In this document: positions 4,932 to 33,437 of the stretch, piece by piece | Numbering within the stretch: position 1 is the first letter of the stretch | How the letters are laid out: every line of letters begins with the position of its first letter | Source: Sneathiella sp. | GTDB taxonomy: Bacteria > Pseudomonadota > Alphaproteobacteria > Sneathiellales > Sneathiellaceae | Reading direction: 5' to 3' | DNA: 33,634 nucleotides | Assembly (NCBI GenBank): GCA_016764355.1 | Contig: JAESSA010000013.1 | Location: 1-33,634 of the forward strand | The notes under the pieces: model-generated | Seen by the model: the letters and a program-made list of their open reading frames with translations, nothing else | What the model was told of the DNA's origin: nothing | Database searches by the model: none | Program-made: the position numbers and the translations under genes

Positions 4932-5789
4932 ATGATTGTTGCACTAGTACTGATTTTTATCGCGCTTGGCTCCGTCGTCTTTCACGTTGTCAACCCTTGG
5001 TGGTGGACAGAAATCGCCTCTAATTGGGGCTATATTGACGATACAATCGTTCTCACATTCTGGATAACCGGCACCGTCTTTGTTGCTGTCATTTTATTTA
5101 TGGCATATTGCATTCTGAAATTCAGGACGGAAAAAGGCCGACGCGCCCATTACGAACCGGAAAACAAAAAGCTAGAAATTTGGCTCAGTGTTCTGACCTC
5201 TATTGGCGTCGCGGGAATGCTGGCGCCAGGCCTGATAGTTTGGCAGCAATATGTCACTGTTCCTGAAAATGCCAGTGAAATTGAAGTTATGGGCCAGCAG
5301 TGGCAATGGAATTTCAGGCTACCGGGAAAAGACGGACGTTTGGGAAAAACCGAAATCCGGTTCGTCGATGATGATAATTATTTCGGTGTTGATCCCAACG
5401 ATCCAAATGGTCAGGACGATGTTCTGATTGAAGGGGATGATCTTCACATTCGCATGGGAAAACCCATCAAATTTCTATTGCGTTCCGTCGATGTTCTTCA
5501 TGATTTTTATGTTCCGCAATTTAGGGCTAAAATGGACCTTGTTCCTGGTGTCATAACCTATTTCTGGATCACCCCTATACGGACAGGAACCTTCGATATT
5601 TTATGTGCTGAATTATGTGGCATTGGACATCATGAAATGCGGGGTTCTGTCACGGTGGAAAAGGACGCAGCTTTTCAGGAGTGGATATCAGAGCAAGAAA
5701 CCTTTGAGGAAGTTCAAGCCGCCGCCCTGCACAGAAAATTAAATAAAGAGTTAGCGCAAAATGAGTTAGAACCCCGCGCAAAAAATTAA
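4932..5789 (+). CDS. coxB: cytochrome c oxidase subunit II (CoxM-like)
   Basis: Two TM helices, 'GQQWQWNFRLPG', His in 'DVLHDFYVP', intact CuA motif 'CAELCGIGHHEM'. Confidence 0.95.
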   Translation: MIVALVLIFIALGSVVFHVVNPWWWTEIASNWGYIDDTIVLTFWITGTVFVAVILFMAYCILKFRTEKGRRAHYEPENKKLEIWLSVLTSIGVAGMLAPGLIVWQQYVTVPENASEIEVMGQQWQWNFRLPGKDGRLGKTEIRFVDDDNYFGVDPNDPNGQDDVLIEGDDLHIRMGKPIKFLLRSVDVLHDFYVPQFRAKMDLVPGVITYFWITPIRTGTFDILCAELCGIGHHEMRGSVTVEKDAAFQEWISEQETFEEVQAAALHRKLNKELAQNELEPRAKN

Positions 5790-5853
5790 GGGGTCGAAGT
5801 AGCCGTTGTTTTTCTAATTGAGAGGGAAGGCTTTCACAGCCGAAAAATAGCTT

Positions 5854-7656
5854 ATGACTGAAACCACATCTCCAGAAGACGACATTGTCCCTCCCCAGGA
5901 AGTTCCTGAAATGGATCTTTACCACCCTCATAGCTTTCTCACGCGCTGGATTTTCAGTCAGGACGCCAAAGTCATAGCCATTCAATATTCTTTGGTCGCC
6001 ATATCAATCGGTATGGTGGCCTTGGTCTTATCCTGGCTTATGCGATTGCAGCTGGGCTTTCCTGATAGTTTCGACTTCATCGATGCCGCTGATTATTACC
6101 AATTCATCACCATGCATGGCATGATTATGGTGGTCTATCTTTTAACCGCGCTGTTCCTAGGCGGATTTGGCAATTACCTGATCCCCCTGATGGTCGGCGC
6201 GCGAGACATGGTCTTTCCCTATATCAATATGCTGAGCTTCTGGATTTACCTACTTGCCGTCCTTGTCCTTGTCAGCTCCTTCTTCGTCCCTGGCGGCCCA
6301 ACGGGGGCTGGTTGGACCCTTTATCCGCCCCAAGCCATTCTGTCGGGCACGCCTGGTCAGGAGTTCGGCATCATCCTAATGCTTGCCTCCCTCATGTTAT
6401 TCATCGTCGGTTTTACCATGGGCGGTTTGAATTATGTTGTGACCATCTTACAAGCCCGCGCACGGGGCATGACCCTCATGCGTATGCCGCTGACCATTTG
6501 GGGAATTTTTATCGCGACAGTGCTCGCCCTTTTCGCTTTTCCGGCACTTTTTGTAGCCTCCCTCATGATGATGTTTGATAAAATTCTAGAGACCAGCTTC
6601 TTCATGCCGGCCATGATCGAATTTGGGGAGAAAATGAGCTATGGCGGCGGTAGTCCGATCCTGTTTCAACATTTATTCTGGTTTTTTGGTCATCCTGAAG
6701 TTTATATCGTTGCCCTTCCCGCCTTTGGCATTGTGTCAGACTTACTCTCCGTCAATGCCCGCAAGAATATCTTTGGATATCGCATGATGGTTTGGGCCAT
6801 TGTGGGCATTGGTGCCCTCGCCTTTGTCGTTTGGGCCCATCACATGTATGTCAGTGGTATGAACCCCTATTTTGGTTTCTTTTTTGCCACCACAACCTTG
6901 ATCATTGCCGTACCAACAGCTTTAAAAGTGTATAACTGGGTACTGACTCTTTGGCGGGGGAATATCCATTTGACCCTGCCCATGTTGTTCGCGCTGGCTT
7001 TTATCCTGACATTCGTCAATGGTGGTATAACCGGCTTATTCCTTGGGAATGTTATTGTGGACATCCCCCTCTCTGACACCATGTTTGTTGTGGCCCATTT
7101 TCACATGGTTATGGGAGTTGCCCCCATTATGGTAATTTTCGGTGCCATCTATCATTGGTACCCGTTACTTACCGGTCGCATGCTACATAATGGTATGGGC
7201 CAGTTCCATTTCTGGGTGACCTTCCTTGGCGCTTACGCCATCTACTTCCCCATGCATTATCTTGGGTTTATTGGTGTTCCCCGTCGGTATTTCGAATTGG
7301 GGGAGACGACCTTTATTCCAGACTCGGCCCATGACCTGAATGCGTTTATCACAGTCGCGGCCCTCGTGGTTGGCTTTGCTCAACTTGTCTTCCTTTTCAA
7401 TCTATTTTGGAGCCGTCGCAATGGCATTGTTGCAGAACGCAACCCATGGAAGGCAACCACACTGGAGTGGCAAACAGAGCATATGCCACCAACCCATGGC
7501 AATTTTGGTAAGGATCTCCCCATCGTTTATCGCTGGGCTTATGACTTTAGTGTTCCCGGCGCGGAAAGTGACTTTATCCCGCAAAATATGGCGACAAAAG
7601 ACGTTAAACTTGCAGAAGGCATGACGGTCGCTGATTTGAAGGCAGAGAAAACATGA
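5854..7656 (+). CDS. ctaD: cytochrome c oxidase subunit I (CoxN-like, A-type)
   Basis: Multi-TM; 'ITMHGMIMVV', D-channel 'GARDMVFPYINMLSFW', 'FWFFGHPEVYIVALPAFGI', 'WAHHMY', K-channel 'AVPTALKVYNW', 'VAHFHMVMG'. Confidence 0.97.
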   Translation: MTETTSPEDDIVPPQEVPEMDLYHPHSFLTRWIFSQDAKVIAIQYSLVAISIGMVALVLSWLMRLQLGFPDSFDFIDAADYYQFITMHGMIMVVYLLTALFLGGFGNYLIPLMVGARDMVFPYINMLSFWIYLLAVLVLVSSFFVPGGPTGAGWTLYPPQAILSGTPGQEFGIILMLASLMLFIVGFTMGGLNYVVTILQARARGMTLMRMPLTIWGIFIATVLALFAFPALFVASLMMMFDKILETSFFMPAMIEFGEKMSYGGGSPILFQHLFWFFGHPEVYIVALPAFGIVSDLLSVNARKNIFGYRMMVWAIVGIGALAFVVWAHHMYVSGMNPYFGFFFATTTLIIAVPTALKVYNWVLTLWRGNIHLTLPMLFALAFILTFVNGGITGLFLGNVIVDIPLSDTMFVVAHFHMVMGVAPIMVIFGAIYHWYPLLTGRMLHNGMGQFHFWVTFLGAYAIYFPMHYLGFIGVPRRYFELGETTFIPDSAHDLNAFITVAALVVGFAQLVFLFNLFWSRRNGIVAERNPWKATTLEWQTEHMPPTHGNFGKDLPIVYRWAYDFSVPGAESDFIPQNMATKDVKLAEGMTVADLKAEKT

Positions 7657-8273
7657 GTTTTTTTAGTGAAATAGCATCCAAACCGTGGACGGATGAGCAA
7701 ATTAAAGTGGATGACCAATTTAAGGGTCACACTTTCACCCTCCCCAAAGCCATGCTTGGATTGCGCGTTCTGCTCGTCGTGGTCACGATGTTTTTTACTC
7801 TCCTCGCCATTGCCTATTCCGGCCGCATGACCTTTGAAGATTGGCAGTCCCTCCCAGAACCGGGTTTACTCTGGTTTAATACTGGCTTGCTTTTGGTCAG
7901 CAGCGTTGTCTTCCGCTGGACAAAGTCAGCCACACAGCAGGGGCGAAATGGGAAAGTGAAACTCGGCTTGTTTCTAGTGGGGGCACTGGCTTTTGCCTTC
8001 CTCATCGGACAGCTCATCGTATGGCAACAACTGGCAGATCTTGGGCATTTTGCGTCCGCAAATCCAGCTAATGGGTTTTTCTACTTGATTACGGGTCTTC
8101 ACGGATTGCACCTGCTTGGCGGTCTTGTGGCTTGGGGTAGAACGACCCTTCGCGTAATGCGAGGCAAGATCGGCCAAGAGAAGCTCCTCTTGAGTGTGGA
8201 AATGTGTGCCCTATATTGGAGTTTCCTGCTTGTCGTATGGTTAGCGATGTTCCTGCTTTTACTTGTCACCTAA
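7653..8273 (+). CDS. cytochrome c oxidase subunit III family protein (CoxO-like)
   Basis: Start overlaps the ctaD stop (ATGA); 206 aa, 'FFYLITGLHGLHLLGGLVAW', 'EMCALYWSFLLVVWLAMFLLLLV'. Confidence 0.92.
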   Translation: MSFFSEIASKPWTDEQIKVDDQFKGHTFTLPKAMLGLRVLLVVVTMFFTLLAIAYSGRMTFEDWQSLPEPGLLWFNTGLLLVSSVVFRWTKSATQQGRNGKVKLGLFLVGALAFAFLIGQLIVWQQLADLGHFASANPANGFFYLITGLHGLHLLGGLVAWGRTTLRVMRGKIGQEKLLLSVEMCALYWSFLLVVWLAMFLLLLVT

Positions 8274-8286
8274 TAGGAGAAGTGAA

Positions 8287-9009
8287 ATGTCACAAACGGC
8301 GTCCCCTAAATCAGCAGAGTCTGCGGCTGATCCCGGTCGCATAGAATCTGCCATCCAGGATTGGAGTTCAGATCAGCGCGCCTTTAAGAATGTTCCTTGG
8401 GGCAAGGCGATGATGTGGCTTTTCCTGCTCAGTGACACCTTTATTTTCAGCATCTTCCTAATCTCCTACATGACAGTGCGTATGTCTACCAAAGTGGCTT
8501 GGCCCAATACAAGTCAGGTTTTTGCGCTGGAAATTGGCGGCGTACAATTCCCTCTCCTGCTTATTGCTATCATGACATTCATTCTAATCAGCAGCAGTGG
8601 CACCATGGCCATGGCCGTTAAATTTGGCTATAGCAAAAACCGGAAAATCACCGCCATTTTAATGCTCGTCACCGCCCTTTTTGGACTGTCATTTGTCGGC
8701 ATGCAAGCCTTTGAATGGACAAAATTAATTCATGAAGGCGTCCGTCCGTGGTCGAACCCTTTTGGGGCACCGCAATTTGGGTCCATCTTCTTTATGATCA
8801 CGGGTTTTCACGGGTTCCATGTCTCCATAGGGGTCATCTTCTTGTTCATTGTGGCCCGGAAAGTCTGGCGAGGAGATTATGACACCGGCAAACGAGGCTT
8901 TTTTACAAGCCGACGGGGAAATTATGAACATGTGGAAATGATGGGTCTGTACTGGCATTTCGTGGATTTGGTCTGGGTGTTTATTTTCGCATTTTTCTAT
9001 CTTTGGTGA
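8287..9009 (+). CDS. second cytochrome c oxidase subunit III family protein (CoxP-like)
   Basis: ATG 8287 after aggagaagtgaa; 'IFFMITGFHGFHVSIGVIFL', 'EHVEMMGLYWHFVDLVWVFIFAFFYLW'. Confidence 0.93.
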   Translation: MSQTASPKSAESAADPGRIESAIQDWSSDQRAFKNVPWGKAMMWLFLLSDTFIFSIFLISYMTVRMSTKVAWPNTSQVFALEIGGVQFPLLLIAIMTFILISSSGTMAMAVKFGYSKNRKITAILMLVTALFGLSFVGMQAFEWTKLIHEGVRPWSNPFGAPQFGSIFFMITGFHGFHVSIGVIFLFIVARKVWRGDYDTGKRGFFTSRRGNYEHVEMMGLYWHFVDLVWVFIFAFFYLW

Positions 9010-9021
9010 AGGGACTTTAGA

Positions 9022-9351
9022 ATGGAACAAGACCAAACGCACGGTCAGGAACACCCCATTAGTACCTATTTCTGGATTTGGGGATTGTTATTCGTCTTAA
9101 GCGCATTCTCATACATGGTGGATATTCTGGGCTTTGAAAGTTATACCCGCTGGACACTTATTCTTGTATTTATGCTATCAAAAGCGGGGCTCATTGTCGC
9201 TATCTTCATGCATATGGCGTGGGAGAAAACAGCCATTATTTACGCCATTTTGTTGCCCACGGCCTTTATATTGGTTTTTGTTAGTTTAATGATGTTAGAG
9301 GCGGACAATACACATCTTGTGCGGGAGATTTTCTTCTCAAGTCCCTTATAA
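9022..9351 (+). CDS. prokaryotic cytochrome c oxidase subunit IV family protein
   Basis: 109 aa, three hydrophobic helices, 'FMLSKAGLIVAIFMHMAWEK', last gene of the oxidase operon. Confidence 0.85.
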   Translation: MEQDQTHGQEHPISTYFWIWGLLFVLSAFSYMVDILGFESYTRWTLILVFMLSKAGLIVAIFMHMAWEKTAIIYAILLPTAFILVFVSLMMLEADNTHLVREIFFSSPL

Positions 9352-24454: not shown

Positions 24455-26026
24455 ATGGCAGGTACCTTGACAAGGGTTGAAGATGTATATGCAAAACTAG
24501 CTGTTCCCTTCTGGGTTCTGCTTTTTATCAGTTTTCTGTCAATCAGCGCGCTGGTTTTCTTTTCCATTCATACGCAAAATCAAAATTCCATACAATCTTC
24601 GATTCACTTAGCCAATTCGGTACTGGACGGGCAAAAAAAAGATCTTGAAACCTTGACACGAGATCATAGTTTTTGGGATCAAGCCGTTGAAAATATTGTT
24701 AAAGAACCTAATCTGGGTTGGGCAGATTTGAATATTGGCCTTTATTTATTTGAGGCGGAAGGCATATCATCTAGTTATTCACTAAATGAAGACAACACGC
24801 TGATCTACGCCCAAATAGATGGCGTGAGACAACAAGACGATCCCTTATCTCGGTTTTCAGGGGGATTGGAAATTTTACTTGAAATAGCCCGCTCAGGAGA
24901 TCCCTCCACCCGTCCAATGCCTCAATTAGGGTATCTTGTGGACGAAACCGGCGTTCATCTGGCCGCGGCATCCGTATTAACGACTTACCAAGGGTTCTCG
25001 GAAAATAGAACCATTCAACAGACAAGCTCAATCCTTCTATTAATCCAACGACTAGACGAGGCTTTACTTAAAGATATTTCTGACAATTTTTTTCTTACTA
25101 ATGCTAGGTTTCTTGAGGATATAAGCCTTGCACCGGAAGCTTCGCTACAACTGTTCTCTCCAGATAAAACACATATCGCAACACTTTCATGGACGCCACA
25201 ACGTTTGGGGGATCAAACGCTGCCTGTCATGCTTTTGGGCATATTCATTGTTTTTACCCTAATGGCAGTTATCGCCTATTTCTTTCTCAAGCGCATAAAT
25301 GTAGCCGCCCAAACAACCAGCAAAGCCATTGAGGCCGATCAGGCTAAATCAGAATTTCTGGCCAATATGAGCCATGAATTAAGAACGCCCCTTAATACAA
25401 TTATTGGTTTTTCCGACATTATGAGGAACCAGCTTTTTGGCCCTATGGGCAACGACAGATACTTAAATTATACTGGGGATATAAATGCTGCAGGAGATCA
25501 CCTTCTCAGCCTCATAAACGAGATACTCGATCTTGCGAAAATTGAAGCAGGCAAGTGGGAGCTGGTACTCGAAGAAGTCGATCTCAATGAAATATTGCTT
25601 TCAAGCCTGCGCTTCATCAACAAGCAGGCCTTCGAAAAGAAAATCGACTTGAAGATTGAAATGGGAGAAAATATACCCAGGTTCCGCTCTGATCAACGGG
25701 TATTAATGCAAGTTATCCTGAACATTCTCTCTAACTCAGTAAAATTCACACCCTATGGTGGATGCGTCACCTGCCGCACGTCGCTGACAGAGGATCGGCA
25801 TGCGCGCATACATATATCCGATAATGGCATTGGGATAATTAAGGCAGACATACCAAAAATACTAAAGCCCTTTGGACAAGTAGCACTAAATAACGACTTT
25901 CAGCATCATGGGACTGGGCTGGGCCTGCCCATCACCCGAAAGTTGATTATTTTGCTGGGTGGTAGCTTTTCCTTGCAAAGCGAAGTGAATGTCGGGACCC
26001 AAGTCACCATTTGCTTTCCCCTTTAA
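24455..26026 (+). CDS. sensor histidine kinase with CHASE4-like periplasmic domain
   Basis: Two TMs flank an extracytoplasmic domain ('DLETLTRDHSFWDQAVENIV'); HisKA 'SEFLANMSHELRTPLNTIIGFSDIM', HATPase 'NILSNSVKFTPYGG','DNGIGI','GTGLGLPI'. Confidence 0.92.
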   Translation: MAGTLTRVEDVYAKLAVPFWVLLFISFLSISALVFFSIHTQNQNSIQSSIHLANSVLDGQKKDLETLTRDHSFWDQAVENIVKEPNLGWADLNIGLYLFEAEGISSSYSLNEDNTLIYAQIDGVRQQDDPLSRFSGGLEILLEIARSGDPSTRPMPQLGYLVDETGVHLAAASVLTTYQGFSENRTIQQTSSILLLIQRLDEALLKDISDNFFLTNARFLEDISLAPEASLQLFSPDKTHIATLSWTPQRLGDQTLPVMLLGIFIVFTLMAVIAYFFLKRINVAAQTTSKAIEADQAKSEFLANMSHELRTPLNTIIGFSDIMRNQLFGPMGNDRYLNYTGDINAAGDHLLSLINEILDLAKIEAGKWELVLEEVDLNEILLSSLRFINKQAFEKKIDLKIEMGENIPRFRSDQRVLMQVILNILSNSVKFTPYGGCVTCRTSLTEDRHARIHISDNGIGIIKADIPKILKPFGQVALNNDFQHHGTGLGLPITRKLIILLGGSFSLQSEVNVGTQVTICFPL

Positions 26027-26181
26027 AGACCTTACCGGAAACGCCTGAACTAAAATCCAACGCTCGCCTTTTTTGAGTCTCTCCATAATAAAATGTGTTT
26101 ATTTGTCAGTTCATTTTTGTTACTATATTATTTATAGTTACAAACTTGTCCTCAGCATTTGACTTTCAGGAGCAAAAAATA

Positions 26182-28383
26182 ATGATAAAAAAAGTGCTAT
26201 GCGCCAGCTGTGATGTCCATTGCCAAGTGAGCGCACACGTGCCTGATACTGGCCTGGTTAAAGATGTGAAGGTCAGGGCACAGAACCCAGCTAAATATAA
26301 AGCGAACATTTGTATCAAAGGCATTCATGCGCCCTTGGGCTTAAGCCACGAAAAACGAATTACTCATCCTTTAAAACGTGTTGGCGCGCGAGGCAGCGGT
26401 CAATGGGAACAGGTATCGTGGGATGAAGCCTTGAATGACATTGCTCTTCGCCTTAAAAAGATCGTTGAAGAACATGGCCCTGAGGCTCTTGCCGTTTCCG
26501 AGTCTCCTGCGATTGTTCAAAATAGTATGGGCATGACCCGACGCTTCATGAACTTACTGGGATCGCCAAATTATATCAGTGGTGTCGCCCTTTGTATGGG
26601 AAATACAGCGGCGGTAAATCGACTGACATATGGCTGGTTTCCTTTCCCTGATTTCCAGCGCGCGGAATGTATTGTTCTTTTCGGGCATGATCCAAAGCCT
26701 CATTCCTGGACACCAATTTATAACGCCATACGCAGAGCACAGCTCCGTGGAGCCAAACTGATCGTTATCGATCCAAGAGAAAGCGAAAATGCTAAAGTTG
26801 CTGATCTGTGGCTCCCCCTCAACCCCGGAACGGATGCCGCCCTTTGCTTCGGCTGGCTAAAAGTAATTATAGATGAAGAGCTTTATGATAAAGATTTCGT
26901 TGCAAATTGGACGACTGGTTTTGAGGAATTTAAAGAACGCGTAAATGAATTCCCTTTGGACCGTGTTGCCAAAATCACCGGTGTCGACGCGGACCTTATT
27001 GCCCAGTCCGCCCGAATGTACGCGACCAGCGGCCCTGCTGTCATTCCCTGGACACCAATTACAGACCAGCAACGTAACTCCACATCGGCCATTCGCCTTC
27101 ACGGTGCCTTAAGGGCGATCTGCGGATTTCTGGATGTGCCGGGCGGCGAAATAATGCACGGCTTCAACCCCGACGTTATATCCGAGACAGAGTTGGAAGT
27201 GCATGATGAACTGCCCCAAGCAAAAAGAGACTTACAACTGGGCGCGGATAAACATCCTGTTTTCACCTACAAAATGATGGCATCCCCTGAAATTCGCGCC
27301 GCCACTAAACGTGTTTGGGGTAATGAATGGGCAAACATAATATCCGGCAATTATATGGCTCACCCGACATCGGTTTTTAAAGCCATGAAGGGAGACGGCC
27401 CCTATCCAGTAAAAGCATTTTTCACTATCGCCAATAATACCCTAATGAGTTACGCAAATATGCCTCTCATCCATGAGGCGCTGTTAAATCAGGATTTAAT
27501 TGTCGCGTTTGAGCAATTCAGATCCCCCACGGCCCAGCTTGCAGATTATATTCTACCCAGCGACTCGTGGTTGGAGAGAAATGGCTTATCAGACGGTTTT
27601 GGATGGACCAGTATCGTTCGACCGTCTCAAAAAGTGGTCAACCCAGCAGGCGAGTGCCGCGGCATCTATCAGGTATGGAGTGGGCTGGCTAAGCGCATGG
27701 GATTTGGAGAACAGTTCCCTTGGAAAAATGAAGAGGCCTTAATGGATCACAGGCTTTCAAAACTAGGTATGAATTTTGAGGATTTTGCAGAAACCCACGC
27801 AATGCATATCCCTAAAATGACCCTGAAAAAATATGAAAAAACAGGTTTTGCTACACCGTCTGGAAAGGTGGAGCTCAAATCAAGTGTCTTAGAAAAATTC
27901 GGTTTTGATCCCCTTCCCTATTGGCGCGAAGATCCAGATCTTGGCCCAGACTTCCCCTTAAAAATGTTTGTCGGGGTTCGGGAAGATGAATATTTCCAGA
28001 CAGGTCACCGCCATATAGAAAAATTCCGAAAGCGCAATACAGAGCCCTATTTCTTCGTTTCAGTAAAAGATGCTGATGAAGCCGGGCTCACCCAAGGGAA
28101 CTGGGCTGAGGTTTTCACTGTTTTGGGCAGCGTAAAAGCCAAAGTGGATATTCAGGAACAAATGCCTGAGGGTGTCATCCGAGTTCCTCATGGTTGGTGG
28201 GACCCTGAACGAGAAGAAGGGGACGGCTCCCTTTCCGGCGCATGGGAATTTGCTGATAGCCAAATTTGCCCTGATGACGATGATCATATAGACCGAGAAC
28301 AAGGCATTCCCCAATTAAAGGGAACGGCGTGTCGCATTCAACCTTTGAGCGCTGATTATAGCGCGAAATATGCGCAAAAATAA
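26182..28383 (+). CDS. molybdopterin (Mo/W-bisPGD) enzyme of the DMSO reductase family, acetylene hydratase-like
   Basis: Start at ATG 26182 with SD AGGAG (ORF 26095 is an N-terminal over-extension); C7-x2-C10-D11-x2-C14...C44 FeS motif, 'LGSPNYISGVALCMGNTAA', 'WLPLNPGTDAAL', 'QLADYILPSDSWLERNG'. Confidence 0.88.
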   Translation: MIKKVLCASCDVHCQVSAHVPDTGLVKDVKVRAQNPAKYKANICIKGIHAPLGLSHEKRITHPLKRVGARGSGQWEQVSWDEALNDIALRLKKIVEEHGPEALAVSESPAIVQNSMGMTRRFMNLLGSPNYISGVALCMGNTAAVNRLTYGWFPFPDFQRAECIVLFGHDPKPHSWTPIYNAIRRAQLRGAKLIVIDPRESENAKVADLWLPLNPGTDAALCFGWLKVIIDEELYDKDFVANWTTGFEEFKERVNEFPLDRVAKITGVDADLIAQSARMYATSGPAVIPWTPITDQQRNSTSAIRLHGALRAICGFLDVPGGEIMHGFNPDVISETELEVHDELPQAKRDLQLGADKHPVFTYKMMASPEIRAATKRVWGNEWANIISGNYMAHPTSVFKAMKGDGPYPVKAFFTIANNTLMSYANMPLIHEALLNQDLIVAFEQFRSPTAQLADYILPSDSWLERNGLSDGFGWTSIVRPSQKVVNPAGECRGIYQVWSGLAKRMGFGEQFPWKNEEALMDHRLSKLGMNFEDFAETHAMHIPKMTLKKYEKTGFATPSGKVELKSSVLEKFGFDPLPYWREDPDLGPDFPLKMFVGVREDEYFQTGHRHIEKFRKRNTEPYFFVSVKDADEAGLTQGNWAEVFTVLGSVKAKVDIQEQMPEGVIRVPHGWWDPEREEGDGSLSGAWEFADSQICPDDDDHIDREQGIPQLKGTACRIQPLSADYSAKYAQK

Positions 28384-28435: not shown

Positions 28436-28948
28436 ATGAAACGAAGTTCGCTTGCTGACAGATATTGCTCTATTGCCCGCTCCAGCGCAGAATTGGTGGA
28501 TGGTTGGACATTCGTGATTTTACGAGAAATATTTCTCCACAATCGCCGCTTCGATGGCTTACAGGCTCAAACGGGAATGTCTCCTCGCTCCCTCACTTTA
28601 CGGTTAAAACTCCTAGTGGAAGAAAAAATTCTAGAAAAAACCGCTTATCAGCCAGCTCCCAAGCGGTACGAATATCGGCTCACCCCCAAAGGTCTAGATC
28701 TTTGGCCAATGGTTGTAATGCTAAAACAATGGGGCGATAAGTGGCAAGGCCCGTGGGAGGGGGATCAACCGCCTCTTGGTCTAACTCACAAGGGGCATGA
28801 TCACGAATTAACGCTCGAAATATCCTGTAAAACCTGCAACGAACTTGTAGATGCGCATTCAGGGGAATCTTATATCAGCGCCCCAATGGCAGCAGAGCGT
28901 GCTGCGATGGCAAAGACCCATGAGAAAAAGATCAAGGGCATTGTGTAA
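28436..28948 (+). CDS. HxlR family helix-turn-helix transcriptional regulator
   Basis: 'CSIARSSAELVDGWTFVILREIFLHNRRFDGLQAQTGMSPRSLTLRLKLLVEEKILEKTAYQPAPKRYEYRLTPKGLDL'. Confidence 0.9.
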   Translation: MKRSSLADRYCSIARSSAELVDGWTFVILREIFLHNRRFDGLQAQTGMSPRSLTLRLKLLVEEKILEKTAYQPAPKRYEYRLTPKGLDLWPMVVMLKQWGDKWQGPWEGDQPPLGLTHKGHDHELTLEISCKTCNELVDAHSGESYISAPMAAERAAMAKTHEKKIKGIV

Positions 28949-29599
28949 TCATTCTGCGTCAGGTTGGTTTTCTGGCCGTGCATCTTTGAAGGGGATAAGG
29001 TCCCGGCAATTTTCTTCAATGCGCAAAATGTTTGGATAATCATTCATCGGTATATCAAACCGCCGGGCATTGTAGATTTGCGGGATTAAACAGCAATCGG
29101 CCATACCCGGTCCACTGCCGTGGCAGAAATCCCCTGTATGGGCAGCGTTTTCAAGCATGACCTCAAAAGCTCTAAATCCTTCGCTCACCCAATGGCTATA
29201 CCATTCCGTCTTGCCAGCTTGGCTGGCATCCATTTCGGTCACCAGATATTTAAGCACCCGCAGATTATTTAAGGGATGCATCTCACAGGCAATGACATCG
29301 CACAAGCTTCGCACCTGGGCTCTCTCGAGAGCCTCTTTAGGCAACAAGGCGGGATAGGGATATTGCTCTTCCAGATATTCAAGGATGCTTAAGGACTGGT
29401 TAAGATACGTGCCGTCCACATCCAAGACTGGCACGAGTTTTTGGGGATTGAGGGAGGAGAATTCTGCACTATTGTGCATACCACCCCCCGTCACCAGATG
29501 AACCCCCACATGGCGCCACTCAAGACCCTTCAAGTTCAAGGCAATACGCACCCGGTAGGACGCACTGGATCGCCAATAGCCATGAAGGGTGAGGGTCAT
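28949..29599 (-). CDS. maiA: maleylacetoacetate isomerase (zeta-class GST)
   Basis: Start at 29599 (TAATG overlap with the upstream stop); 'LHGYWRSSASYRVRIALNLKGLEW', 'NPQKLVPVLDVDG', 'SLSILEYLEEQYP'. Confidence 0.93.
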   Translation of the reverse strand: MTLTLHGYWRSSASYRVRIALNLKGLEWRHVGVHLVTGGGMHNSAEFSSLNPQKLVPVLDVDGTYLNQSLSILEYLEEQYPYPALLPKEALERAQVRSLCDVIACEMHPLNNLRVLKYLVTEMDASQAGKTEWYSHWVSEGFRAFEVMLENAAHTGDFCHGSGPGMADCCLIPQIYNARRFDIPMNDYPNILRIEENCRDLIPFKDARPENQPDAE

Positions 29600-30906
29600 T
29601 ACATCTCCTTTAACGACGGATGTTGAACTGCAGGCAGGATTTTGCCCGTCGCATCGCCAAATCCAATGCGGTAGCCATCCCCCTGACACCAACCGGTCAT
29701 GGAAATGGTATCGCCATCTTCAATAAAGGTACGGCTCTCGCCGCCGTCCAACGTCATGGGATTTTGCCCGTTCCAAGATAGCTCTAAAAAGCTGCCAAGA
29801 CTGTCTTTATCCTGCCCGCTTATGGTGCCCGATCCCAGCAAGTCGCCACTGCGCATAGCACAGCCGCAAGCCGCATGATGAGCAAGCTGTTGAGGGCTAG
29901 ACCAATACATATATTTAAAATTGGTTTTGCAGATTGTCGTGGCTTTTGCCGCCGCCTCTGGCTGTACTGTCACTTGCAATTTGAGATTGTAGTTATAACC
30001 GGCCTTTTGCCGTAAATAAGGTAAGGGTTCCGGGTCTTGGACCGGCCCCGCTTGGCGGAACGGCTCCATCGCTGCGCGGGTGACCACCCAAGGGGAGATC
30101 GTACTGGCAAAGGCTTTGGCCTGGAAAGGTCCCAAGGGCTGATATTCCCATACTTGAATATCCCGTGCACTCCAATCATTGAGGATGACATAACCGAAAA
30201 TCATCTCGTTGGCCTGATCCACCGTAATGGGTTGCCCCATGGGGTTTGAAGTCCCAACGATTGCCGCGATTTCAAGTTCCATGTCGAGCTTGCGGCACGC
30301 ATCGAAAATTGGACCGTCGCTCCCCGGCGGCTTTATTTGTCCCAAAGGCCGATGAATATCTGTGCCACTGGCAACGACGGTGCTAGCGCGGCCGTTATAA
30401 CCGATCGGGATATGCAGCCAGTTTGGCATTAGTGCGTTATCAGGATCACGGAACATGGTGCCCACATTGGTCGCATGTTCTTTTGATGCATAAAAATCCG
30501 TATAATCCCCAACCTGCACCGGCATATGCAGGGTAGCGTCTGCTTGGGACACTAAGGCCAGTGCCCGCAAATCCTCATCATCCTGAAGCGTGCGGGAGGA
30601 CGCATCCAGCAATGCGCTGACAACGGCGCGCACCTCTGCCCACACCTTGGGACCAAGGCTCATAAACCGGTTTATGTCCGGCGCGGAGAAAATGTCTTTC
30701 GAAATGGGGATAAGCCACGTTTTCTCCAGCACCGACAAATCAAGAATTTGATCCCCGATGGCAACCCCGACCCTTTTTTCAGGCTTGCCCGCCGTGGTAA
30801 AAACCCCAAAGGGAAGGTTCTGGATAGGGAAATGACAATCGGGCTGATTGGCACTCACCAGCCAACTTTTAAGGGCCGGATCATTTGTTTTATCGTCTGT
30901 TGTCAT
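29599..30906 (-). CDS. fahA: fumarylacetoacetase
   Basis: 435 aa; 'LPFGVFTTAGKPEKRVGVAIGDQILDL', 'DYTDFYASKEHATNVGTMFR', 'MELEIAAIVG', 'LNDWSARDIQVWEYQPLGPFQAKAF'. Confidence 0.96.
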   Translation of the reverse strand: MTTDDKTNDPALKSWLVSANQPDCHFPIQNLPFGVFTTAGKPEKRVGVAIGDQILDLSVLEKTWLIPISKDIFSAPDINRFMSLGPKVWAEVRAVVSALLDASSRTLQDDEDLRALALVSQADATLHMPVQVGDYTDFYASKEHATNVGTMFRDPDNALMPNWLHIPIGYNGRASTVVASGTDIHRPLGQIKPPGSDGPIFDACRKLDMELEIAAIVGTSNPMGQPITVDQANEMIFGYVILNDWSARDIQVWEYQPLGPFQAKAFASTISPWVVTRAAMEPFRQAGPVQDPEPLPYLRQKAGYNYNLKLQVTVQPEAAAKATTICKTNFKYMYWSSPQQLAHHAACGCAMRSGDLLGSGTISGQDKDSLGSFLELSWNGQNPMTLDGGESRTFIEDGDTISMTGWCQGDGYRIGFGDATGKILPAVQHPSLKEM

Positions 30907-30920
30907 AATATCTTTAACCC

Positions 30921-32021
30921 TTAGTCGGTTTTAATCACGCCCCGTGCGATCTGATCCCGTTCGATTGACTCGAACAGCGCCTTAAAGTTCCCCTCGCCAA
31001 ATCCATCATCTTTTTTCCGCTGGATGAATTCAAAGAAAACCGGCCCAATGACCGTATCAGAGAAAATCTGCAACAACAGCCGCGGATCGCCATCTTCAGT
31101 CGAGCCATCAAGCAGTATTCCGCGCATTTGCAATTCTCCCACAGGTTCCCCATGCCCCGGTAGACGATCTTCCAGCATGTCGTAATAGGTGCTGGGCGGC
31201 GCGGTCATGAAAGGCACGCCTTTTTTCTTTAACATGTCCCAGCTGGCCAACAAATCTTCACTTTCAAAGGCGATATGCTGAATGCCTTCGCCATTATATT
31301 CCATCAAAAATTCTTCGATTTGTCCGGTGCCCGCAGAGGCCTCTTCATTGAGGGGAATACGGATTTTGCCGTCTGGTGCGGTGAGCGCCCGTGATTTAAG
31401 GCCCGTATATTCGCCCTTAATATCGAAATAGCGGATTTCGCGGAAATTAAACAGTTTCTCGTAAAAATCGCCCCAATATCCCATGCGACCGCGATAGACA
31501 TTATGGGTCATGTGATCGATGACTTTAAAACCACAGCCGACGGGATGACGGTCCACCCCTTCAATAAATTCAAAATCGATATCGTAAATGCTCTGCCCTT
31601 CCTCATACCGATCGATCAGGTATAGGGGCGCACCGCCGATACCCTTGATCGCGGGCAAGCGCAGCTCCATCGGACCTGTTGGGATGTCCACAGGCTGAGC
31701 GCCCAGCTCCAACGCGCGGGTGTAGGCTTTGTGGGAATCTTTCACCCGAAAGGCAAGACCGCAGGCGCAGGGACCGTGTTCTTCGGCAAAATACGCCGCG
31801 TGGCTTTTGGGCTCATTATTGATGATCAGGTTTATGCCGCCTTGGCGAAACAACACCACATCTTTAGATCGATGAGTGGCGACCTTTGTAAAGCCCATCA
31901 TCTCGAATATGGGTTCTAACACACCCGGCTTGGGCGAGGCGAATTCAACGAATTCAAAGCCATCAAGGCCCATGGGGTTTTCATATAAATCGGTGGAATT
32001 CTGGGTATCTGCTTTTGTCAT
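30921..32021 (-). CDS. hppD: 4-hydroxyphenylpyruvate dioxygenase
   Basis: 366 aa; '[10 protein letters not shown]', 'VIDHMTHNV', '[13 protein letters not shown]', '[22 protein letters not shown]'. Confidence 0.96.
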
Positions 32022-32151
32022 TTTTGACTCTCATTTTTATAGATCAGGGTGCGTTAAGGGGCTCTCCGACTTATCGGAGGGGCGCAGGCAATGCCCCGCA
32101 CACTGTTCGCCAGAATGTCTCCGATCATGAGATACATATGCCTATGCTCCT

Positions 32152-32688
32152 TTACGGGCGATGACTGCCGTCATGCATCCATTTTGCATGATCGGGGGCC
32201 ACCTTGGTTTTGTCCCATTCGTTCAGCATGTCCCATTTCACCTGATCCAGCTTTTTATCCATGTCTGCCGTGCTGGTATTAACGGCAAGCTCAAGGCGAT
32301 GACCGCTGGGATCAAAGAAATAGATAGATTTAAAGATAGTGTGATCGGTCGGCCCGACAACCTCTATTCCGTCGGCCTCCAATTTTGCCTTGGTTAAAGC
32401 CAGATCATTCAGATCATCAATTTGAAAGGCGATATGCTGCACCCAATCAGGAGTGTTTTGATCCCGATCCATTTCCGGGAAGGACGGCAGCTCGAAAAAC
32501 GCCAGTACATTGCCCGCGCCCGCATCCAAAAACACATGCATATAAGGGTCTGGCGCTTTGGTGGAGGGCACTTCATTTTCAGCAATCGCCAGAATAAAAT
32601 CCATGTTCAGGTATTTCCCATACCATTCCACCGTCTGCTTGGCATTCCGGCAGCGATAAGCCACATGGTGGATCTTGTTAATTTTCAT
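32152..32688 (-). CDS. VOC family protein (single-domain glyoxalase/extradiol dioxygenase fold)
   Basis: Start ATG 32688 with SD gaggag; 'INKIHHVAYRCRNAKQTVEWYGKYLNM', 'DWVQHIAFQIDDLNDL', 'DPSGHRLELAV'. Confidence 0.9.
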   Translation of the reverse strand: MKINKIHHVAYRCRNAKQTVEWYGKYLNMDFILAIAENEVPSTKAPDPYMHVFLDAGAGNVLAFFELPSFPEMDRDQNTPDWVQHIAFQIDDLNDLALTKAKLEADGIEVVGPTDHTIFKSIYFFDPSGHRLELAVNTSTADMDKKLDQVKWDMLNEWDKTKVAPDHAKWMHDGSHRP

Positions 32689-32753
32689 TTCTATCTCCTC
32701 AAATAGACAGGCAGGAGGGCGCATCTCTTCGGCTCTCTCACAAAACAATAATG

Positions 32754-32767
32754 GTAACATTTGTTAC
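32754..32767. promoter_or_regulatory. inverted repeat, candidate operator in the VOC/marR intergenic region
   Basis: GTAACA-tt-TGTTAC, perfect 6-bp arms. Confidence 0.4.
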
Positions 32768-32852
32768 TAAAGTCAATATGGATTCACATTATATTTTTTG
32801 ATTATATCTGCGCATATAAGCAATTGAACTCAGACCCCGTTCAATTTATAAT

Positions 32853-32884
32853 ATCAAATGTTATGAATTTGATTGGTTACCAAT
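32853..32884. promoter_or_regulatory. two overlapping-edge inverted repeats, candidate MarR operator(s)
   Basis: ATCAAAT-N7-ATTTGAT (32853-32873) and ATTGGT-t-ACCAAT (32872-32884) directly upstream of marR. Confidence 0.45.
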
Positions 32885-32897
32885 AAGGACAGTTCCG

Positions 32898-33437
32898 ATG
32901 GCAAAGGATAGCCGCACAATTCGCGGGGAGATTAAAACACCCCTTGATGGTTCGTGGGAGATACCCAAAGACAAGGCAACGCGGGACGATGCCCATCTGG
33001 ACCTCACCACCTTCTACCCCTACCGCCTGTCTATCCTGAATATAGCGGTGAGCAAGTCCATCTCTCAACTTTACGCGGATCGGTTTAATTTAAACCGCCA
33101 TGAATGGCGCATCATCGCTGCCCTTGGGGATCAACAGCCCCTCACCGCCACGGATATTGCCAAGATCACCAGTATGGAGAAAATGCCCGTCAGCCGCGGG
33201 GTGGCTAAATTGATCGAGGACGAGATGATCGAGGCTACGGAGAACGCATCCGACCGCCGCCAGAAAACCCTCCGCCTGTCCAAAAAAGGCACCACCATCT
33301 ACAAACAAATCGTCCCCCTCGCCCAAGCCCGCGAGGATTACATCCTGTCTGGCCTAACACCGGACGAGTACGCAGAACTCAACCGGCTTCTTGGGAAGAC
33401 TTATGAAAAGGCGCTGGAGTTGCAACGGCGGGGGTGA
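32898..33437 (+). CDS. MarR family winged-helix transcriptional regulator
   Basis: 'RLSILNIAVSKSISQLYADRFNLNRHEWRIIAALGDQQPLTATDIAKITSMEKMPVSRGVAKLIEDEMIEATENASDRRQKTLRLSKKG'. Confidence 0.93.
   Translation: MAKDSRTIRGEIKTPLDGSWEIPKDKATRDDAHLDLTTFYPYRLSILNIAVSKSISQLYADRFNLNRHEWRIIAALGDQQPLTATDIAKITSMEKMPVSRGVAKLIEDEMIEATENASDRRQKTLRLSKKGTTIYKQIVPLAQAREDYILSGLTPDEYAELNRLLGKTYEKALELQRRG

Follow-up and report, generated by a model that had tools for sequence, protein, structure and literature searches.

An acetylene hydratase-subfamily protein from Sneathiella with a divergent predicted pocket and an adjoining HxlR-family regulator gene

In the stretch of Sneathiella sp. DNA analysed here (33,634 nucleotides, hereafter the window), positions 26182-28383 encode a metallopterin protein of the acetylene hydratase (AH) subfamily, the branch of the DMSO reductase family that is marked by Asp13. 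It has counterparts of AH cluster cysteines 9/12/16/46, of Asp13 and of Cys141 (C138, the predicted metal ligand), it falls with AH in phylogenetic trees, and it is predicted to adopt the AH fold. Taking all observations jointly, we read it, with a probability of about 0.5, as a non-redox, inducible hydratase of this subfamily whose substrate would be some small unsaturated compound and not acetylene. To our knowledge, no well-studied metal-pterin enzyme other than AH adds water rather than moving electrons, a single acetylene hydratase has so far been characterised, and the AH subfamily is the only non-redox metallopterin hydratase subfamily.

The subfamily itself is known: further members with Asp13 have been described (PMC12096430), and many metagenomic homologues have been read as acetylene users in evolutionary arguments (PMC10100899). 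The aerobic clade that includes our protein is a distinct variant of it, and in the open-access literature we found no description of its pocket divergence, its HxlR operator or its missing Fe-S neighbour. If this widespread clade hydrates another compound, annotations as acetylene users and the inferred history of acetylene metabolism will need revision. A second substrate would also help settle the AH mechanism, which is itself still disputed (PMC12096430), and the linked regulator and operator offer a direct route to the inducer.

Assignment by sequence, fold and phylogeny

The best phmmer match of the window protein in the PDB was AH (2E7Z; 45% identity, 664.8 bits over residues 3-715), and the similarity is far above chance, given an E-value of 1e-198; the next match, a thiosulfate/polysulfide reductase, scored 198 bits. 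Pfam recognised two molybdopterin domains only, with the chain ending at residue 733, and among the NCBIfam matches listed there was no AH model and all lay far under their cut-offs. A subfamily profile made from eleven proteins, the window protein excluded, gave the window protein 1191 bits, AH 1153 and the Rhodococcus opacus protein 1141 (the latter two being members of the training set), compared with at most 614 for proteins with a CxxCH motif, at most 284 for redox references (FdhF, 284) and at most 258 for the other two MopB proteins that this genome encodes. An AlphaFold2 model computed from an alignment of 40 sequences (pLDDT 91.5, pTM 0.92) matched 2E7Z in Foldseek with a TM score of 0.95 and an rmsd of 1.6 Å, while every other structure, redox relatives included, reached 0.80 or less.

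The residues named in a preliminary description of this DNA can all be read in the open reading frame, which starts MIKKVLCASCDVHC...: the N-terminal motif is C7-A-S-C10-D11-V-H-C14, C44 follows downstream, and the segment ALCMGN supplies C138 and M139. The AH numbering and the offsets given there were also correct, in that the alignment with 2E7Z pairs C9, C12, D13, C16, C46, C141 and I142 with C7, C10, D11, C14, C44, C138 and M139, and it further places K48 on K46; D11 aligns gap-free with Asp13, so that the catalytic Asp is retained and Ile142 is replaced by Met, as had been proposed. The four cluster cysteines, Asp13, Lys48, Cys141, Trp179 and Trp293 (AH numbering) are unchanged throughout the 81 relatives whose N-terminus is intact. 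Asp after the second cluster Cys is indeed unusual: it is absent from FdhF, PsrA and NapA, as well as from the other two MopB proteins of the genome. In a 2025 review, Asp13 is described as specific to the AH subfamily (PMC12096430). By itself, however, it does not fully identify a member: a Coriobacteriia protein (L140) has CGVCDNIC yet scores only 316 bits with the subfamily profile, versus at least 1065 for subfamily members.

Table 1. Features of the enzyme gene and its surroundings (window coordinates)
Feature	Position	Strand	Basis
Cytochrome oxidase cluster: COX2, COX1, two COX3-like, COX4_pro	4932-9351		
Predicted sigma-70-type promoter, TTGTCA-17-TATTAT	26103-26131	+	10/12 consensus letters; consensus match only
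Candidate operator, inverted repeat TTTGTTACTATA-ttatt-TATAGTTACAAA over the -10 box	26116-26144	+	11/12 pairs
Ribosome-binding site AGGAG for ATG 26182	26168-26172	+	sequence
AH-subfamily metallopterin enzyme, 733 aa	26182-28383	+	664.8 bits to 2E7Z, TM 0.95, trees
Codons C7, C10, D11, C14 (first three cluster Cys and Asp13 counterpart)	26200-26223	+	invariant, 81/81 N-terminally intact relatives
Codons C44 (fourth cluster Cys) to K46 (Lys48 counterpart)	26311-26319	+	invariant, 81/81
Codon A110 (pocket; AH Ile113 counterpart, Trp in most relatives)	26509-26511	+	alignment; presumed pocket role
Codons C138 (predicted metal ligand, Cys141 counterpart) and M139 (at AH Ile142; mostly Ala in relatives)	26593-26598	+	alignment
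Codon W176 (AH Trp179 counterpart)	26707-26709	+	invariant, 81/81
Codon W290 (AH Trp293 counterpart)	27049-27051	+	invariant, 81/81
HxlR-family regulator, 170 aa, Cys at position 11	28436-28948	+	PF01638, 64.9 bits (cut-off 20.8)

Both mixture-model trees placed the window protein in one clade with AH, the aerobic clade and the plasmid-borne R. opacus protein (support 96/97 in one tree and 100/99 in the other), and so gave no sign of the grouping with a redox clade that the preliminary description had named as a refutation. This clade leaves out formate dehydrogenase, DMSO reductase, NapA, the genome's other MopB proteins and the CxxCH/CxxCY relatives, and a quick tree of 58 rows agreed with it; the long outgroup branches are not reliably ordered, but the AH clade itself is stable. 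Within the subfamily, the R. opacus protein is the first branch. In the tree with 100/99 support, the only row of the AH clade without the motif (L158) is a C-terminal match of the gene of L131, the motif lying beyond the stretch read. Scores, fold and trees together rule out membership in the redox MopB groups (Fdh, Psr/Phs, Nap, Dms).

AH-related Coriobacteriia proteins with CxxCH (Actinomycetota; L116, L118, L132-L134, L145, L150, L152 and L157) form a separate clade (100/100 each). Among the Coriobacteriales proteins that have been reported as acetylene hydratases (PMC7858054), some may fall with this CxxCH clade and not with AH.

Pocket residues and the proposed reaction

The AH pocket, which we take to consist of I14, I113, I142, W179, W293 and W472 (residues said to have been described in Seiffert 2007 and tenBrink 2011), is only partly kept. 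At positions 14/113/142/472, AH has I14/I113/I142/W472 and the window protein V12/A110/M139/F473, although the partner of W472 sits in a loop of unsure alignment, with W475 two residues further. The R. opacus homologue has I/I/L/W, and in most members of the aerobic clade the residues are I/W/A followed by F or Y. The pair at 113/142 is Trp/Ala in 66 sequences, Ala/Met in 11, Trp/Met in two, Trp/Ser in one and Ile/Leu in one (R. opacus); Ala/Met is found both in the window protein and its sister from a genome of the same genus (G004) and in a separate group of Rhodospirillales and Gammaproteobacteria. The bulky residue changes sides between the two positions, with two independent pairs, too few for a co-variation test. 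Reviews bear out parts of this pocket list: Trp179 and Trp472 have been named as lying near the active Asp of AH (PMC12096430), and much activity was lost when an Ile of the AH pocket was changed to Ala (PMC6013536). The latter review also states that AH converts no acetylene derivatives.

The alignment thus suggests a pocket wall remodelled in the aerobic clade relative to AH. As this wall is unlike that of AH, the substrate would probably be not acetylene but another small, unsaturated and hydrophobic compound, and because the pocket residues differ from I14/I113/I142/W472 (with the alignment at W472 unsure), we do not file the window protein as an acetylene hydratase in the strict sense. 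A true acetylene hydratase, with which an aerobe would use or detoxify acetylene in a pocket that differs in detail and still fits it, seems to us unlikely, even though the catalytic residues and fold of AH are all kept. Aerobic acetylene users are known, with the R. opacus enzyme reported to be molybdenum-dependent (PMC7858054), but it is the plasmid homologue of R. opacus, whose genus includes known acetylene users, that keeps an AH-type pocket, and this protein branches apart from the aerobic clade. Published surveys do count AH homologues as acetylene users (PMC10100899); against this stand the exchange of Ile113/Ile142 for Ala/Met in the window protein and for Trp/Ala in most of its clade, in view of the activity lost by the Ile-to-Ala variant, and the absence of the Fe-S neighbour of the reference AHs.

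By analogy with AH, the proposed hydratase would be a cytoplasmic single-subunit enzyme with W- or Mo-bis-MGD and a [4Fe-4S] cluster. The reduced metal would be held by C138 and two pterin dithiolenes, with the cluster bound by C7/C10/C14/C44 beside it, and D11 would act as the base that positions and deprotonates a metal-bound water; this water would then add across a carbon-carbon multiple bond of a substrate lodged in the hydrophobic pocket, without net transfer of electrons. We infer that catalysis is of a non-redox kind. For the aerobic clade as a whole, we would tentatively, at a little short of even odds, propose the first non-acetylene branch of the AH subfamily: inducible hydratases with opposite size changes at 113/142 that act on other alkynes or alkenes.

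Partner genes and regulation

As the preliminary description had claimed, the window holds no gene for an Fe-S subunit or membrane anchor, and the protein has no leader or Tat motif, its chain beginning right before the cluster motif. Within two genes of the AH-like gene, a scan for motifs only (which flavoproteins would escape) found no 4Fe-4S ferredoxin-motif gene in 84 of 85 loci, the exception being R. opacus; an AH-like gene from Coriobacteriia (L115) also has a ferredoxin-motif gene close by. Reference AHs have nearby Fe-S genes (PMC7858054), and the missing partner therefore sets the aerobic clade apart from them, as it does from redox complexes. We treat such a neighbour as a supporting, not a defining, mark of AH in the strict sense.

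The partners of MopB enzymes need not be encoded next door and can lie away from the enzyme gene, which would accommodate a redox enzyme with an unlinked soluble donor, such as a reductive dehydroxylase or a dehydrogenase, whose likeness to AH reflects common descent only. We consider this improbable. The nearest characterised relatives of AH, the catechol dehydroxylases, are reductive (PMC7028382), but the candidate dehydroxylases of Coriobacteriia (so called from their class and similarity) carry CxxCH and form the separate clade described above (100/100 each). Similarly, a relative from a Rhizobium plasmid (L012, 31% identity) sits with a ferredoxin and an FAD/NAD(P) protein, but it has Tyr at the Asp position and falls outside the AH clade, in which Asp13 is invariant and the scan for Fe-S motifs found no recurring partner alongside. 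A catechol dehydroxylase as such also seems improbable: the window has none of the Tat signal, Fe-S subunit and anchor of the Eggerthella lenta type, and the protein lies outside the CxxCH clade of presumed Coriobacteriia dehydroxylases. Hydroxyl or sulfur transfer, as by pyrogallol transhydroxylase or the metallopterin ergothioneine synthase, can be set aside as very improbable: the synthase module is AH-related and Cys-ligated (PMC9516567), but the window protein has no fused cysteine desulfurase, ending at 733 residues, and none was found among its neighbours, and pyrogallol transhydroxylase is a poor match (45.6 bits by phmmer in the PDB, TM 0.71 in Foldseek). Of the earlier wording "hydratase or hydroxytransferase", the first part is a sound inference and is strengthened by the apparently remodelled pocket, and the second is weak on these same two scores.

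The HxlR gene lies on the strand of the enzyme gene, 52 bases past its stop codon. An HxlR gene also adjoins the enzyme gene in G004 and Albimonas (opposite strand) and lies divergently upstream of it in many others: of the genes up to two places from the enzyme, 17 of 230 belong to this family, versus 1 of 694 at four or more places (p 5e-10, one contig, L009 = L036, having been taken twice). TetR (6 versus 0) and MarR (6 versus 2) genes are likewise enriched nearby. In addition, AGTCCA-n5-TGGACT, found by eye in the very sequences scored, occurs with at least 10 of 12 letters in the promoter region of 12 of the 15 HxlR-adjacent scored loci but in only 1 of 63 others (p 1e-10). Kinship of the loci inflates the p-values for both adjacency and operator, although the contrast is still large, and we read the motif as a putative operator footprint linked to HxlR in relatives of the window gene.

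This motif is absent from the window and was rejected as an operator of the window gene. The candidate operator there is a different inverted repeat, over the -10 box of the predicted promoter (Table 1); equal or better repeats arose in 0.45% of 2000 local shuffles, and it is known from this single genome, unseen in relatives. The adjoining HxlR protein probably represses the enzyme gene from such an operator and would release it in the presence of the substrate or of some reactive compound. As one-component regulators of this type generally answer to a ligand or reactive compound, the enzyme is probably inducible.

The window does hold a cytochrome oxidase cluster (Table 1), putatively that of the aa3 oxidase named in the preliminary description. 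Just upstream of the enzyme, at 24455-26026, is a gene for a CHASE4 sensor histidine kinase, whose link to the enzyme is unsupported. Positions 28949-33437 hold a tyrosine/homogentisate-type catabolic cluster with genes for a GST-like protein, fumarylacetoacetase, 4-hydroxyphenylpyruvate dioxygenase, a glyoxalase-fold protein and a MarR regulator.

Distribution and comparison with known systems

The enzyme is present in 16 of 386 genomes of its class, at an E-value of 1e-130, and in 3 of 25 of its own genus. Its named relatives are mostly Pseudomonadota (Hydrogenophaga, Variovorax, Paraburkholderia, Zavarzinia, Nevskia, Halioglobus and Zhongshania), and further ones come from MAGs of Myxococcota, Binatota and Acidobacteriota. 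The closest, at 70% identity, is from a Sneathiellales MAG (JAKSCD010000449.1, L036) and is the same contig as that of G004 (L009). The third copy in the genus (G023:C1:1224889-1227036, L011) is only 52% identical, groups with actinobacterial sequences and has an adjoining MarR gene. The genus thus holds two separate lineages of the enzyme gene, likely because of horizontal transfer.

Several recurrent neighbours were seen in relatives. A protein of 74-99 residues is encoded directly after the AH-like gene at L055:12202-12435 and 19 other loci (L010, L054-L087), mostly with an ATGA stop overlap; it has invariant D-x2-CR, F-x-RD and RG, no match in Pfam, NCBIfam or the PDB, and a weak predicted model (pLDDT 69, pTM 0.32). 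Divergent copies follow the gene in G067 and G144, and none was found in G000 or G004. A MobA-like nucleotidyltransferase gene, perhaps dedicated to the cofactor, lies at most two genes away in L010, L055, L056 and L057. The genome of the window yielded no MobA, MoaA or ModA, which is uninformative for a MAG that is 66% complete and whose genus relatives have MoaA and MobA. In Burkholderiales relatives, an enoyl-CoA hydratase gene directly follows the AH-like gene in L028, L031 and L032 and is the second gene downstream in L033, and L032 also has a tautomerase-family gene next; enoyl-CoA hydratase as a standing partner was rejected, since the enrichment did not go beyond p 0.08 and the crotonase models that scored best were not the same at all loci.

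Of the known systems, the AH of Syntrophotalea (Pelobacter) acetylenica, 2E7Z, has in common with the window protein the fold, the cluster cysteines, Asp13, Lys48, Cys141, Trp179 and Trp293, whereas the latter differs at pocket positions 14/113/142/472, in lacking an Fe-S neighbour, in its aerobic host and in its HxlR regulator. The R. opacus plasmid homologue (NZ_CP082159.1, L008; 42% identity) is likewise a CxxCD member of the AH subfamily with the same catalytic residues; unlike the window protein, it combines an AH-like pocket with a nearby FdxA ferredoxin and a first-branching position, and it is a candidate for the molybdenum-dependent acetylene hydratase of aerobic Rhodococcus. Its locus (NZ_CP082159.1:625087-651297) has FdxA and MoeZ nearby and flanking transposases. 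The catechol dehydroxylases (Dadh, Hcdh, Cldh) are Cys-ligated DMSO-reductase-family enzymes related to AH (PMC7028382), but they are reductive, unlike the enzyme proposed here, and those of E. lenta have Tat, Fe-S and anchor partners. Finally, the metallopterin ergothioneine synthase of Caldithrix abyssi has an AH-related metallopterin module like that of the window protein, but with a fused cysteine desulfurase, 27% identity to AH and an occurrence in anaerobes only (PMC9516567).
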